A stretch of 64,000 nucleotides of DNA from Opitutia bacterium ISCC 52 (GTDB lineage Bacteria > Verrucomicrobiota > Verrucomicrobiia > Opitutales > UBA2995), in the NCBI GenBank assembly GCA_014529675.2, contig CP076040.1:248001-312000 (forward strand), written 5' to 3'. Below are positions 48,484 through 57,035 of this stretch, piece after piece. The notes under the pieces were generated by a model, which did not search any database, was not told the origin of the DNA, and was given only the letters and a program-made list of their open reading frames with translations. The position numbers were made by a program, and so were the translations under genes. Position 1 is the first letter of the stretch, and every line of letters begins with the position of its first letter.

Positions 48484-50580
48484 CTATCCTTCGTTGGGAA
48501 GTGCCTGGTAACTCATTTGTGAAAGAGAAATCGCACCGCCCACCTCAACTGAGAAAGGAGTCAGTCCAGCTTGAGGTTGAGACCCGAAGTTTACGGTGAT
48601 AGATACCTCTCCCTCTGGTGTCAAAAAAGTGCTTCTTTGAATGAGTCGATCATCACTCAAGTATTCAAAGTCTATAAGCGGAGCCGGGGCTAGCTTTCGA
48701 TGAAGTGGAGACCAGAATGTGTAATGCTTAAGGATCTTTTCTTTCCGCGTCTCCCAAATAGCACGATTGAGATGGTACATGGGTGGAACCATGTAGAGGA
48801 TTTCGATTAATTCACGTGTGTGCTCGATATCTGCAAACTTAAGGGAATCAAAATTCCAGTGATGAGTGGTAACGAGCTCATCCCCGACCGCGGCCTGATA
48901 TAGTGGGATCCGATTTACAGGATCAAAATAAGGGGCATTCAAGCCAGGTGGAACCGGAATGGGTTTGAAATACATTTCGGGCTGATGAGGAGGCCAATGC
49001 CTCCCTAAAAAATGAGGACTCTGTTTGTCCTTAAATGCTGGAGAAAGATGGCCAATGTAGGGTGTGTTTACTCCATGGCCGTAATGAATTACATCAGCAA
49101 AAACTATTGAACCACCTTCGCTTCCCACGACCATGCCCTTACTGGATTCAATCCAGTTTAGCCGGTGACGTCTCAGTTGTGAATCATCCATGCGATTAGC
49201 CGAGTGTAATGCATGATAGTCATCGAAACATTCTCCGGTGGCATCGCAGTCGATGAACCAGGTCGAATAGTTTGTTTGGCTAACGATACCGTTCACACGG
49301 TCTTGCACATACGGCCATGCTGCTTGCGGGGAAAAATGATAGCCGATTCCCTTGAAGCCTCCGTGGCCTGAACCATCGAAATTAATAACACGACCTACTT
49401 CAAATGCGTCCTTGTCGAATTGTGCGGTTTCCCAGGTGTCGTCGGGTTCGGCCTCTGGCGAGTGAACGGAATGATAGGAATCATAGGGGCCTATAAGGAA
49501 GCCCAGCTCTTTGGCGTAGGCCGCCACATCAGGTTTTGCGGAATATCCGTAAAGATCACTGAGGACTAGGTTTGCTCGATCAATTCCTGCTTCGCTTATC
49601 GCATCGAGGAGTGGCTTTGAAAATCCATCTCCCCATTGATCTGTGGGTTTTAGGAAGTGAGGGAACTGAGATTTAAAGGCCGCTTTGTTTTGTCCTGAAA
49701 CTTCAGTCGGGTGAGCAGTCTCGTTGAGTCCAAGCAAGCTTGAGTCGGTAAGAGCCGCATTGATGGTGTCGGCGACTCCTTGAGTTAGATAGGCGGCAGG
49801 CCAGTCTGACTGAGAAAGTTCTTTAAGCTGCTCCCTTTGTTCAGGAGCAAAAAGCTGTGTGAGCTTGTCTCCAAAACTGGAAGAGGGGGAGTTGTTTAAG
49901 GCTTTTGCAAATCCCACCCATTTGTTTCTTGGGACATCATGATCGCTGAATAGTGCAGATCCCCATAGGTAAAAATGGGGGGCTCCCAATAGTCTTTCAA
50001 CCTTCGGAAGGTCGCTTATCTTTTGTCCCAAAGTTCTTACTGGTGGGATGGCCCCTAATTCCTTGGCTGACTTCCTCCAATCCCGAAAAGCGTGTGCAGC
50101 CGCTAACGGAGTTGCTGGTCGCCTGACCGTTACGATCTCTACTGGGCTTGCATCTAGTCTGCCAGGGGGTAATTCTATGCGAATACCTAGTGATTTACCT
50201 GCCACTATTTTCCCATAGTGTGGCCAAGGTGCGATTATGATTAAGGTTTGATCTCCGTAGTTAGCGCCGAGAACAGGTAGCTCCATGAGCGACCAAGAGC
50301 GGCTTTCGAGAAGCCACTTTATTTGTGCTGGATTTTTTGGATCAACTTCAACGCCAGCTGCGATGGGTAATTTGAAAGAGGTAGCTCCTTCAGGGAACCA
50401 CCACGTAACCATTTCGGTGCTATCTGTAGCTTGGAGTTGGATCGTAAAGTCGGTCGAGAAATCGGAGGATTCGAGTTGAATCTCCGAGCCTGCTAATACC
50501 AATGAAATGCCTTGGGTGAGGAATAGAAAGCTCAGGCAATAGTGGTTAATTTTAAAGGGTGGGAGGGTCAATGGCAGCAT
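48484..50580 (-). CDS. Exported glycoside hydrolase-like protein (GH101/GH129-related)
   Basis: A 698-residue protein with a long N-terminal signal (hydrophobic 13-30, cleavage after VLAG). A beta domain follows, then a large barrel region with NLVLSDLYGYSAKPDVAAYAKELGFLIGPYDSYH, TWFIDCDATGECFDDYHA and GMVVGSEGG, and a C-terminal beta domain. The acidic residues in FIDCDA and VVGSEGG lie where nucleophile and acid/base sit in families related to endo-alpha-N-acetylgalactosaminidase (GH101, GH129). The family call comes from motif resemblance and is tentative. It probably acts outside the cytoplasm on a glycan. It has no close operon partner. Confidence 0.6.
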   Translation of the reverse strand: MLPLTLPPFKINHYCLSFLFLTQGISLVLAGSEIQLESSDFSTDFTIQLQATDSTEMVTWWFPEGATSFKLPIAAGVEVDPKNPAQIKWLLESRSWSLMELPVLGANYGDQTLIIIAPWPHYGKIVAGKSLGIRIELPPGRLDASPVEIVTVRRPATPLAAAHAFRDWRKSAKELGAIPPVRTLGQKISDLPKVERLLGAPHFYLWGSALFSDHDVPRNKWVGFAKALNNSPSSSFGDKLTQLFAPEQREQLKELSQSDWPAAYLTQGVADTINAALTDSSLLGLNETAHPTEVSGQNKAAFKSQFPHFLKPTDQWGDGFSKPLLDAISEAGIDRANLVLSDLYGYSAKPDVAAYAKELGFLIGPYDSYHSVHSPEAEPDDTWETAQFDKDAFEVGRVINFDGSGHGGFKGIGYHFSPQAAWPYVQDRVNGIVSQTNYSTWFIDCDATGECFDDYHALHSANRMDDSQLRRHRLNWIESSKGMVVGSEGGSIVFADVIHYGHGVNTPYIGHLSPAFKDKQSPHFLGRHWPPHQPEMYFKPIPVPPGLNAPYFDPVNRIPLYQAAVGDELVTTHHWNFDSLKFADIEHTRELIEILYMVPPMYHLNRAIWETRKEKILKHYTFWSPLHRKLAPAPLIDFEYLSDDRLIQRSTFLTPEGEVSITVNFGSQPQAGLTPFSVEVGGAISLSQMSYQALPNEG

Positions 50581-50819: not shown

Positions 50820-51361
50820 TAAATGAACCGAATAACAAGCCAATACCCGAAAAGCGGAATGCTTTGATCCCCCAGGTAGTGGACGTTATCCGAACAACGA
50901 ATCGAGGACGTCCTCTGGTGCTGGGAGTTGCACATTGGAGTAATGTAGAATATCTGCCTCAGCTGATTTTGCCCTCAGATCCCCATCTTATATTGAGCTC
51001 TCATTATTATAGCCCTCATGAGTTTACCCATCAAGGGACTCCTTGGTCTCAGCCCAAGTATCGGGATGCAAAGGGTATTCGATGGATGGGTACGGAAGAA
51101 GAAAAACAAAGAATTACACGCGATTTTATGATTGCTGTGGAGTACGCCCGGGAGAAAGAGGTCCCCATTTATCTGGGTGAGTCCGGGGCCTATCAGGCGG
51201 CTGATATGGAATCGCGGATTCGCTGGACTGAATTTGTTGCCGACGAAGCACGTCGTCTCGGTATGTCTGTGGCTTGCTGGGAATTCATTGCGAACTTCGG
51301 GCTTTATGACGGTGCTAGAGATGAGTGGAGATTGGGGCTAAGGGACGCGGTTTTGCCCTGA
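50786..51361 (+). pseudogene. C-terminal half of a GH5-family glycoside hydrolase
   Basis: From a stop at 50783 the frame is open to TGA at 51359. It contains RVFFEPLNEPNNK with the acid/base glutamate of GH5 (NEP), then LVLGVAHWSNVEYLPQLILP, SHYYSPHEFTHQG, IYLGESGAY with the nucleophile glutamate, and CWEFIANFGLYD. These are the second-half motifs of secreted endoglucanase-like GH5 enzymes. The first half of the barrel and the signal peptide are gone. The only start is a TTG at 50864, past the acid/base residue. It is a remnant. Confidence 0.85.
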
Positions 51362-51442: not shown

Positions 51443-52459
51443 ATGGATAAAAAATCAGTTTCTTTTCTTGCTCTGGGCCTTGTCATAGGTGCCGTGCTCA
51501 CAACGGGCATCTTCTCGCTCATTACCGGTGGAGGGGGTTCCGAGGGAGGCCAACAAAAGGTGGTCCTTAAATTAGCTCACGTTCTCCCAGCTTCCGCACC
51601 GGTTCACAAAGCCATGGTTCGCATGTCGGAACTTGCAGCTGAGAAATCCGCTGGACTCGTAGACATACAGGTATTTCCCAATGGCCAACTCGGTGGTGAA
51701 ACCGAGACGATTGAGCAAATGCAGCGTGGAGCGTTAGCGATGGTGAAGGCATCGACCGCACCTATGGAAGGGTTCATACCCGAGATGGCTGTGTTTAGCG
51801 TGCCGTATCTCTTCCGCGACGAGGATCACTATTGGAAGGTGCTCAATGGTGATATCGGGCAAGGCGTTTTGCGAAAAGGTGCGGAGGTTGGGATTCGAGG
51901 TTTGTGTTACTATGATAGTGGCGCTCGAAGTTTCTACACGGTCGATAAACCAGTGCTTACTCCGGCGGATCTGCAGGGTATGAAAATCCGAGTGATGAAC
52001 AGCAAGACAGCCATGGATATGGTCGACACCTTGGGCGGGTCACCCACGCCCATTCCGTTTGGTGAACTCTATACGGCTTTGCAGCAGAGTATGGTTGATG
52101 GCGCTGAAAATAATCCACCCAGCATGTATGATACCCGTCACTGGGAAGTAGCAAAGCACTACAGTATGGATGAGCATGCACGCATTCCAGATATCGTTTT
52201 ATTCAGTCAAAAGATTTGGGAATCTCTCTCTCCTCAAGTGAAACAGTGGGTACAGGAGGCTGCGGACGAGTCAGTGGTCTATCAAAGGCAAATTTGGAGT
52301 GAGTATGTAGAAGAATGCTTAACAAACCTGGAAGCAGAAGGCGTCAAGATATACCGCCCCTCCAAAGAACCGTTTCAAGAAATGGCGAAGGGGATGTATA
52401 GTAATTTCGATGGAACGCCCGTTCGGTCATTGATCGAGCAAATTCAATCAATCAAATAA
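51443..52459 (+). CDS. TRAP transporter solute-binding protein (DctP family)
   Basis: A 338-residue periplasmic binding protein with an N-terminal membrane segment (residues 7-29) and a glycine-rich linker. KLAHVLPASAPVHKAM, FPNGQLGGETETIEQMQRG and the ligand arginine region GMKIRVMNSKTAMDMVDTLGGSPTPIPFGELYTALQQSMVDGAENN follow. This is the standard DctP layout, in which Arg binds the carboxylate of an organic or sugar acid. The small permease gene starts 13 bases later. With the mannonate dehydratase and xylanase nearby, a uronate or aldonate is a reasonable guess for the substrate. Confidence 0.93.
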   Translation: MDKKSVSFLALGLVIGAVLTTGIFSLITGGGGSEGGQQKVVLKLAHVLPASAPVHKAMVRMSELAAEKSAGLVDIQVFPNGQLGGETETIEQMQRGALAMVKASTAPMEGFIPEMAVFSVPYLFRDEDHYWKVLNGDIGQGVLRKGAEVGIRGLCYYDSGARSFYTVDKPVLTPADLQGMKIRVMNSKTAMDMVDTLGGSPTPIPFGELYTALQQSMVDGAENNPPSMYDTRHWEVAKHYSMDEHARIPDIVLFSQKIWESLSPQVKQWVQEAADESVVYQRQIWSEYVEECLTNLEAEGVKIYRPSKEPFQEMAKGMYSNFDGTPVRSLIEQIQSIK

Positions 52460-52472
52460 AGGACTCGTACCC

Positions 52473-52988
52473 ATGAAATCCTTACGAGATATCCTGGTCA
52501 AATTCCTTGAGTGGTTTCTGATCTTCGCTTTCGCAGTTTTAACACTGGATGTTCTTTGGGGCGTTTTCTCCAGGTATGTCCTGGGTGCTCAATCTGTTTG
52601 GACGGAGGAGTTGGCTATCAATTTGTTGATCTGGGTATCTCTCTTGGGTGCGGCTCTCACTTATGAGGAGAAGGGACACCTGGGCGTGGACTACTTTGTC
52701 GGTAAGCTGCATCCGGAAGCCCGAAAGCTGGGTGCGGTATTTGTAGAGCTGATGGTGCTTTTCTTTGCCGGATTCGGTCTTTTATACGGTGGTTGGTTGT
52801 CGGTGAGCGAAACGCTCGCCGCAGGACAAGTGACTCCCGCACTGGGTTGGCAAAAGGGGTATCTATACACCGCTGCGCCTATTTCCGGTCTGTTTTTCAT
52901 AATCTTCAGTATCGAACATTTGATTCAGCTATTTACCGGCTACACAACTCAGGTTGATTCAGTCTCGGAGGAAGGAGGAGACCTCTAA
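52473..52988 (+). CDS. TRAP transporter small permease (DctQ family)
   Basis: A 171-residue protein with four membrane helices (about 13-35, 50-66, 85-110 and 125-150). It has VFSRYVLGAQSVWTEELAINLLIWVSLLGAALTYEEKGHLGVDYFV, the DctQ signature. It forms the inner-membrane transporter with the large subunit. It lies 13 bases after the DctP gene, and its stop overlaps the start of the DctM gene (TAATG), so the three genes are one operon. Confidence 0.93.
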   Translation: MKSLRDILVKFLEWFLIFAFAVLTLDVLWGVFSRYVLGAQSVWTEELAINLLIWVSLLGAALTYEEKGHLGVDYFVGKLHPEARKLGAVFVELMVLFFAGFGLLYGGWLSVSETLAAGQVTPALGWQKGYLYTAAPISGLFFIIFSIEHLIQLFTGYTTQVDSVSEEGGDL

Positions 52989-54280
52989 TGGATCCACAAG
53001 TTTTAATCCTCGTTGTTGTTTTCTTTGGGTTGCTAATCCTTCACGTGCCAATCGCCGTGTGTATTGCGGTGGCCACGATCGTTACCATTTTGTCTTTGGG
53101 TGACGTACCCACCGGCTATATCGTTGCCCAGAAGATGTCAGCTGGAATTGCCAGTTTCCCGCTACTCGCCATTCCTTTCTTTGTATTGTCAGGCGTTTTG
53201 ATGGGGGAGGGTGGCATGGCTCGGAGACTGATGGATTTTGCCAATGCGGTTGTCGGTCGTTTTCATGGAGGGCTTGCCTACGTGAATACCATGACCTGCA
53301 TGATGTTTGGCGCCATTTCGGGCTCAGCAGCTGCTGCGGTATCATCGATTGGTGGCTTTATGATTCCCGAGATGGAGCGAAAAAACTATGGCCGCGAATT
53401 CAGTGTCGCTCTGACTACCACCTCTGCAACGACTGGGCTTTTAATTCCGCCTAGTAACATCATGATCGTTTACGCGGTCGTGGCTGGGAACGTATCCGTT
53501 GCCGGCCTTTTCCTTGGGGGCATTGTACCTGGTGTAATCATGGGTCTGTTAATTATGGGCGCCTGTTTCCTTATGAATCGGTCACAGGAAGTCGGGTCCG
53601 GTGAGGTGGCCTCCGTTAAGCAGGTATTCGTGAGTTTCTGGCAGGCATTCCCCAGTTTATTTTTAGTATTTATTGTTATAGGAGGAATTCTTGGAGGTGT
53701 CTTCTCTGCAACGGAGGCCTCTGCTGTCGCTGTTCTTTACGCCGTTATCCTTGGAGTAGTTATTTACCGTGAGGTAAGCGTGAGTGATCTTCCGCGAATA
53801 TTGTTACGGGCTGCAAAAACCACTTCTGTGGTTATGATCTTGGTGGGTGCCAGCCAAGCAATGGGCTGGGTGCTCGCGTATGAGCAAATTCCTCAAACCG
53901 TCAGTTCCGCCTTGCTCGCAATATCGGAAAACAAGTTCGTCATTCTGCTCATCATCAATCTGCTGCTGTTGATTGTTGGTACATTTATGGACATGACTCC
54001 GGCGGTCTTGATTTTTACACCCATCCTCTGGCCGGTTGTTGAAAAACTGGGAATTGAACCGGTCCACTTTGGCATCTTTATGATAGCCAATCTCTGTATA
54101 GGCCTTTGTACCCCTCCAGTGGGTACGTGTTTATTCATTGGTTGTGGTGTTGGAAAAACCAGCATTGCCAAAGTTGTAAAACCTTTGATCCCGATCTTTG
54201 TGGCTATGGTCATAGGCTTGTTGCTGATTACTTATGTCCCCGCGCTTTCGACCTGGTTGCCAGGTGTGTTTGGGCTGTAG
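52988..54280 (+). CDS. TRAP transporter large permease (DctM family)
   Basis: A 430-residue integral membrane protein of the DctM family with about 12 hydrophobic segments. It has IASFPLLAIPFFVLSGVLMGEGGMARRLMDFANAVVG, the MMFGAISGSAAAAVSSIGGFMIPEM loop, and FMDMTPAVLIFTPILWPV. This is the sodium-coupled transport channel driven with DctP and DctQ. Its start overlaps the stop of dctQ by one base. It is the last gene of the operon. Confidence 0.94.
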   Translation: MDPQVLILVVVFFGLLILHVPIAVCIAVATIVTILSLGDVPTGYIVAQKMSAGIASFPLLAIPFFVLSGVLMGEGGMARRLMDFANAVVGRFHGGLAYVNTMTCMMFGAISGSAAAAVSSIGGFMIPEMERKNYGREFSVALTTTSATTGLLIPPSNIMIVYAVVAGNVSVAGLFLGGIVPGVIMGLLIMGACFLMNRSQEVGSGEVASVKQVFVSFWQAFPSLFLVFIVIGGILGGVFSATEASAVAVLYAVILGVVIYREVSVSDLPRILLRAAKTTSVVMILVGASQAMGWVLAYEQIPQTVSSALLAISENKFVILLIINLLLLIVGTFMDMTPAVLIFTPILWPVVEKLGIEPVHFGIFMIANLCIGLCTPPVGTCLFIGCGVGKTSIAKVVKPLIPIFVAMVIGLLLITYVPALSTWLPGVFGL

Positions 54281-54431: not shown

Positions 54432-56486
54432 CTACCTTTCCTTCAATCGGTAAAATTTCGTCTCACCCGAAAAGCTCTCATCTACGTAAGGAAACTGACC
54501 TTCAAGGTCGAGATCCTCAAATATGCCTTCGCTTGTCCAGACTTCCAAGTCGGTGGAAATTTCCAATTCATAAGTGCTGTCGTCGGCCGCCGATAGATTA
54601 AGGCTGACTTTATCACCTTTCACTTCCGCTTGAATGCTTGGTGGCGAGTACGGCACGAGCACAATATTATCCAGCATCACAAAAGTGTAGTTGTTCTCAC
54701 CACTTCCATTATTGCTCAGTGTGAATCGAATGCGGAGTGTGTCTCCTCGAAAATCACTCAGGCTAACTCTTCGTCTTTGAATCCCGGAATCTGGGCTTAT
54801 GGCGCTTGAACTAGGGTGGTAAATTGCTAGGGGAGTCATTACTGGATCTCCGTTTTCTCTTTCAATGTGCAGGTCAAACGGGGTTCCGCTAAATGCACCC
54901 AACAATTGGGCAGAGCCTCGATAATCAAACGATAGGTTTATATTCTCAATGTTCGGAACTTGAATTAATTGTGCCACTTCAATGGTGCCCACTTCCTGGC
55001 CTCTTAGTCCAAGCGTTAGGGCTGCATTTCCAACCGTCGGTTCGATCGGAAAACAGGAACCGGCACCTCGGAATTCAACATTGGGAGCGAGCTCGAACTC
55101 GTCGACTGCCGTGATGGTCCAGCCTTCCGTGCCCCCAGTTTCAAAGTTTCCATTTTGTATAGGGACTTCATCTGTTTGTGCATTGGAGAGCATGAGCGTG
55201 AAGGAGCTTTCCTGGTTTTTTATCAGGCTAAAATCAGTTGAGCTTTCGATACCGTCTAATTTGGCAGAAACATGGTAGTCTCCAAAGAATCCCCTTTCAG
55301 AGAAACTCCCACTTGTATGGGTCCTTCCATTGAAATCATTCCACCAATCTCCGAAAACTAACGCTTCATAAGCCAGGCCATTGGGCTTTGGGCTCCAATC
55401 ATTCCTGAATAAGGCAGAATTGGTTTTGTTGATTTGGCTTTCCCAAAAACCCCACAGCTGAATGCCAACCGTTTTCGGATGACTGAAGATCAGGGTGTGG
55501 AAATCCCTCAGGTAATCGGCCTGCATTGCTTCATCTTCGGTATCAATAGTAAACTCAGTGACACGAATATCCAACTCCGGAAATTTAGCGGTATAGCGCT
55601 GAAGAACATCCCAAAGAATTGGAATGCGAGTAGGTGAGTTGTTGAAGTGACCCTGCATGCCCATGGCGTCGATGGGGGCATTGTTGTCTAATAGGAATTG
55701 AATATGGTCTTCGTAGTTTTGCTGGTGAGTCGCGTTGCGACCTCTACCCGATAAAATGCTATAGTCGTTCAGGTAGAGTGCTTGAGTAGGAAGTACGGCG
55801 CGCGCTGCATTGAACCAGTCCACCATCACTTCGTTACCAAAGGCGTCCATGAGATCGTGATTGTCAAAGGTTTCATTGATGACGTCCCACTCATCGATGA
55901 ATGGCGCGGATTGTGTCCCAACATCGGCGATATGATCCAAGACTGCTTTTTTCGCTGCGGGATCTGTGTTTGCCGGATCCCCATCCGGGATGTAGGCTTT
56001 CATGAAGTTCGGCAAGTGGCGTTCCGACGGCCAAACCATAACATGGGCTCGTGCATAGAGTCCGTTTTCTTTCATCCATTGCGCAGCTGCCAAGGCCTCC
56101 TCAGGCCCCCCTCCCCAGTCACCAGCCCAGGGAGGCCACTTAAAGGCATTGAAAGGTCCGGCTTGATTAAACAATTCCAAAACCTTTGCACGGTACTGAT
56201 CATTCTCGGCGCTGTCGTCCACGATTCGTCCTGCCGATACGGCCGTTCCAAAGTGGTATGCATGTCGTTGAAATTCAAGGGAAACATCTGCGTTTGAGAC
56301 CGGGTTTCCATTGGCGTCGAATACGTGCAACCGAATCGGCCCCTTTCTGTACTGCTCAATTCGTTCTGCCGCTTCCGATCGCCAAGCAGCATCTGGATCT
56401 CTGCCTAAATAGCTGGGTTTGGTCTTTGGCAGGTCTTCGACAGTAAGACTATTTTTGTAGTTCAGAAACTCAACACCGCCTAACTC
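54432..56486 (-). pseudogene. GH10 endo-xylanase, catalytic part after an in-frame stop
   Basis: This is the catalytic portion of a family 10 xylanase. The frame continues directly after a TAA with ELGGVEFLNY, GRDPDAAWRSEAAERIEQYRKGPIRLHVFD, and the (beta/alpha)8 barrel. The acid/base glutamate is in WDVINETFDN and the nucleophile in RVTEFTID, so the active site is intact. A C-terminal beta domain resembling a carbohydrate-binding module follows. The only start inside is a TTG at 56330, which would cut into conserved GH10 sequence. The true start is upstream of the stop (57035). Xylan-degrading activity depends on readthrough or on re-initiation, which is doubtful. Confidence 0.85.
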
Positions 56487-57035
56487 TTAAGATTGAGGAT
56501 GCGCTCCTCCGCCAATACCAAATAGGAGGGCAAGATCACCTGCCGGTTGCTCCTCAGTCATCTGGAATGGAAACAGAAATTCCTGCCATCCATCTTCCTT
56601 GAATGCTGAGACCTCCCTTACGAGATACTTAGTAAAGTTTGGTGCTGGGCTCTGTGGGTAAACGGTTGTGAAGGAGGTTCCGGTTTCGTCCTCCGGTGAG
56701 ATGGATCTAAAGAAGAAGCGCAGCATCATCACATCACCGTTTTCGGTATCCTCAATGGATGAAAAAGAAACCTGACCATTGAAGAAAGCCCCATTGGGAT
56801 TGGTCACCGTTACCCGGATGGCTTGATCGAAGTCTGGATGGTCCGCTTCCACGACCTCGCGGGAACCGACCGGCCCATCATTGTTGCCGTTCCAGAATCC
56901 ATGAGCCGCAATGGGGTCGGCTGCGATCATAGATACGCCGCCCTCAGGCAGGTTTGTGGCAGCCTGGCTAGAAAATGTGACGCCGGTGATCCAGGTCACT
57001 AGCATCCAAAAGCATTTTCTCGGGTAATCTTTCAT
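56487..57035 (-). pseudogene. GH10 endo-xylanase, N-terminal signal and CBM-like part
   Basis: The upstream segment of the same gene and in the same frame. The ATG at 57035 has GAGG about 12 bases before it. It encodes a signal peptide (CFWMLVTWITGVTFSSQAA) and a beta-sandwich, then ends in LLFGIGGGAHPQS before TAA at 56487-56489. In other long GH10 proteins this HPQ segment runs straight into the sequence that here follows the stop (ELGGVEFLN). A TTG at 57053 could add six residues. On its own this product would be a 182-residue secreted domain without catalysis. Confidence 0.75.

Follow-up and report, generated by a model that had tools for sequence, protein, structure and literature searches.

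What does a single in-frame TAA mean in the GH10 xylanase gene of a marine Opitutales bacterium: a young pseudogene, a sequencing error, or a case of stop readthrough? The original prediction for the window (the whole 64,000-nucleotide stretch of DNA that was analysed) left the choice among these three, of which the pseudogene is now the best supported and readthrough appears unlikely. The gene probably encoded a secreted GH10 xylanase and became a nonsense pseudogene recently, an ordinary case that calls for no new way of reading genes. The predicted TAA does split the gene, at 56487-56489, and lies on the minus strand, which the prediction had not stated. The elements of the locus are:

54432-57035, minus strand: interrupted GH10 gene, starting with ATG at 57035 and ending in TAG at 54434-54432; 867 codons including one internal TAA
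56487-56489, minus strand: the internal in-frame TAA, codon 183 (TTA in plus-strand letters)
56490-57035, minus strand: upstream half, with a signal-peptide-like start and a CBM4/22-like beta-sandwich that lacks most of its last strand; 182-residue product
54435-56486, minus strand: downstream half, with the end of the beta-sandwich, the GH10 domain and a C-terminal region; 684 codons with no further stop
55365-56267, minus strand: GH10 catalytic domain, matching PF00331
55872-55874, minus strand: acid/base Glu, codon 388, intact
55869-55871, minus strand: codon 389, Thr where homologues have a near-invariant Pro (NEP to NET)
55554-55556, minus strand: nucleophile Glu, codon 494, intact
51443-54280, plus strand: TRAP transporter genes dctP, dctQ and dctM; dctM abuts the xylanase gene, as it also does in the congeners G007 and G006

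The downstream half matches PF00331 at E = 8e-36 and 124 bits, against a curated cut-off of 22.1, and this match together with the 684 open codons indicates that the frame is not due to chance. Both catalytic glutamates after the stop are intact, as had been predicted, and Glu388 and Glu494 fall on invariant Glu columns of the homologue alignment. Judged from its sequence, the interrupted protein would belong to the GH10 xylanase family, of the secreted type, with predicted xylanase activity. For the upstream ORF, and with it the N-terminal module, no Pfam match exceeds the cut-off, and the secretion signal and the GH10 domain do not share one continuous frame, being separated by the TAA at codon 183. 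The downstream frame had been described as showing no other damage, which holds for stops and frameshifts, of which there are none, but not for two other features: (i) the residue after the acid/base Glu, which is Pro or rarely Ser or Ile in homologues, and (ii) a position near codon 310, where the interrupted gene lacks three residues that both intact congeners have. The Pro389Thr change beside Glu388 stands out as suspicious.

In G007 (77% identity) and G006 (59%), which are of the same genus, the homologue is one uninterrupted ORF. Homologues align across the stop without a gap, and the two halves of the interrupted gene are in the same frame, as originally proposed. The order is represented by 273 genomes, of which 34 besides this one carry a homologue at E <= 1e-30, and not one of the 34 is interrupted; no homologue in this order-wide set has a stop at the codon-183 column. 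The sole homologue from a contig scan (L010) is the same protein as that of G007 and provides no independent copy. Because all homologues are single ORFs, a two-protein arrangement is not ancestral, and the possibility, raised with the original prediction, that homologues are normally two separate proteins was not borne out. Beyond the xylanase gene and dctM, G007 also has two dehydrogenase genes and a DUF5916 gene in the same order as in the window. Conservation varies along the locus: the flanking dehydrogenases and dctM are at 95-99% identity and the N-terminal module at 90%, whereas the GH10 and C-terminal parts (window 54432-56486 against L003) are 75% identical to G007 and have evolved faster in both lineages.

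The structural consequences of the stop were assessed with a confident AlphaFold2 model of the uninterrupted protein of G007 (pLDDT 92.6; 90.8 for the N-terminal module alone), in which the N-terminal module resembles CBM4 and CBM22 structures. In the model the stop falls on residue 164, third in the 12-residue strand (162-173) that ends the module; it removes most of this closing strand and precedes the entire catalytic domain. The first ATG, GTG or TTG after the stop is a TTG at codon 236, and no start codon of these three kinds downstream of the stop retains the signal peptide. With the last strand mostly lost and no signal peptide downstream, neither half looks functional alone. A beta-sandwich followed by a GH10 domain with both glutamates is also the arrangement of GH10 xylanases that carry CBM22 or CBM4 (C. 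thermocellum Xyn10B, PDB 2w5f; R. marinus CBM4-2, PDB 1k42), but here a TAA lies in the module's last strand, NEP has become NET, and the module is without a Pfam match. The best sequence match among solved structures, GH10 XynA (PDB 7d88), shares the GH10 domain, whereas the family of the query has an extra N-terminal module and the window copy is interrupted.

The identity of the stop codon itself bears on its origin. An alignment of 31 sequences has Trp at the stop column, always encoded by TGG, in all six of the closest homologues (G007, G006 and L043-L046), and Leu, Ile or Val in the remaining homologues. Two substitutions therefore separate TAA from the codon of the relatives, and either shortest route from TGG to TAA runs via another stop codon. 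At the largest divergence that the data allow, a neutral model has only 1-2% of TGG-derived stops reading TAA, making passage through an earlier stop improbable in so short a time. More probably, therefore, the ancestral codon was a sense codon other than TGG, or a single event altered both bases. It had been suggested that one base change would restore the gene; such a change does reopen the frame, but with TGG two substitutions away the premise is doubtful.

Amino acid changes were assigned to branches with G006 as the outgroup. Before the stop, in the module, there are two changes in this genome and four in G007; after it there are 41 and 46, respectively. The interrupted gene thus has no excess of amino acid change over the intact G007 gene, which argues for a young stop, one that would be recent relative to the split from G007. 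Allowing a neutral phase on this genome's branch did not fit significantly better, and its upper limit of about 0.18 substitutions per codon is about the same on the interrupted and G007 branches (codon model, interpolated). A decay signal of d = 0.12 on this branch, seen in the first neutral-phase fit, was discarded; it faded once site variation was included and was no larger than that of the intact G007 branch. With synonymous sites saturated between the congeners (2-3 neutral substitutions per codon per branch), tests of omega (branch dN/dS) have little power. A recently disabled gene and one that remains functional would look alike in the rate comparison.

The frequency of broken genes was gauged from family samples (sulfatases and ABC ATPase domains). 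Of 150 sulfatase matches in this genome, four are each interrupted by one in-frame stop, TAA in three and TGA in the fourth:

G000:C1 3417775-3418785: sulfatase L077, one in-frame TGA, frame otherwise open
G000:C1 3210410-3211345: sulfatase L078, one in-frame TAA, frame otherwise open
G000:C1 2150181-2151233: sulfatase L079, one in-frame TAA, frame otherwise open
G000:C1 1894223-1895287: sulfatase L080, one in-frame TAA, frame otherwise open

Stops were also found in two of about 150 sulfatases of the congener G005 (TGA and TAG; single-genome run). None of 49 ABC-transporter ATPase domains in this genome contains a stop, a sample too small for strong contrast. The orthologue of L079 in G005 (L084, on G005:C99) is interrupted by TGA at another codon, inside the conserved GKWHQG motif (GK*HQG), and that in G007 is intact; by sequence comparison, the stops in L079 and L084 appear to be independent nonsense events. 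The chosen cut-off yielded no orthologues of L078. Programmed stops in the sulfatases were considered and rejected, because the one orthologous pair examined has its stops at different codons. Independent nonsense loss of degradative enzymes thus looks commonplace in this genus. A published survey reports in-frame stops to be widespread among bacteria, mostly short-lived, and frequent in carbohydrate-metabolism genes (Belinky et al. 2021, PMC7918605). The stop described here resembles those of that survey in being one stop inside a gene that is otherwise conserved; it is present in one genome, whereas the survey centres on stops that several genomes share. The sulfatase complement is itself very large, with at least 150 PF00884 matches in 4.8 Mb (150 of 312 candidates scored), and congeners are similar.

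Other explanations were weighed against this evidence. An error of sequencing or assembly would mean that the organism itself has a sense codon at this position and an intact enzyme; we rank this explanation second, at a low probability. An error would be consistent with a remaining frame as conserved as that of the intact sister and with the further isolated stops in sulfatases of the same assembly, but a single miscalled base would not suffice to turn the relatives' codon into TAA unless the ancestor had already changed. The stop-free, if small, sample of ABC ATPase domains also speaks against error, as do the similar sulfatase stops of a separately assembled congener, and we infer that the stop is biologically real. 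If instead the TAA were decoded at some level, little full-length enzyme would be made. Constraint after the stop that equals that of the intact sister would agree with such readthrough, and many in-frame stops keep dN/dS below 1, with readthrough proposed for some (PMC7918605); however, a young stop predicts equally conserved constraint. The stop is common to no homologue, the genome has two full-length release-factor genes, and none of 37 tRNA genes has a suppressor anticodon (UAA, UAG or UGA), in a list that must be incomplete because tRNA-Ile is missing from it. Readthrough is thus unlikely, distinctly more so than error. A version in which the TAA is old and tolerated via low-level readthrough, the small amount of xylanase serves as expression control, and purifying selection stems from continued use, is more doubtful again. 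If readthrough were true, a genome that decodes TAA efficiently while using the standard code would be unusual; nothing here requires it.

We consider least probable of all, to the point of being hardly credible, a split of the gene into two working proteins, namely a carbohydrate-binding protein and a GH10 enzyme with a translation start of its own. The internal TTG at codon 236 follows a purine-rich AGAAAGGGG stretch, as might suit separate initiation, but this stretch encodes RKGP, which is also present in the intact homologues; residues common to intact homologues imply that the stretch is not an evolved ribosome site. Moreover, the upstream product would lack most of the module's last beta-strand, the downstream product would have no signal peptide, and there are no split homologues.

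A young nonsense pseudogene is favoured because orthologues are intact and syntenic, no suppressor tRNA was found among the listed genes, two release factors are present, and similar stops occur in other degradative genes. The stop has both marks of this class: it is a disabling stop absent from intact orthologues, and the truncation, from the third residue of the strand onwards and including the whole catalytic domain, takes out needed structure. We propose that an ancestral intact gene, at the same locus that congeners still have, gained a stop in the last beta-strand of the N-terminal module. The native start would then give a secreted fragment of 182 residues, probably unable to fold, while the GH10 part would either not be made or be weakly re-initiated at the internal TTG and kept in the cell for want of a signal peptide. 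Within the genome, a single contig of 4.8 Mb, the interrupted gene is the one match to PF00331; with its sole GH10 gene so affected, the strain has probably lost GH10 activity, a loss of function suggested by the gene's sequence. The locus would then offer a clean example in which one stop removes a genome's only GH10 enzyme and leaves the neighbouring TRAP transporter intact, and one in which annotation pipelines may call the halves as separate genes, or as one working xylanase.

A further remnant lies a few kb from the broken xylanase. The C-terminal half of a GH5 enzyme is encoded at 50864-51361 on the plus strand, matching PF00150 profile positions 149-268 of 272; its frame is open from about 50780 and also encodes an NEP motif (FFEPLNEPN) immediately before the match. 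No N-terminal half is present between there and a GH129-like gene, which starts at 50580 on the opposite strand, and the GH5 remnant looks like a 5′-truncated pseudogene.
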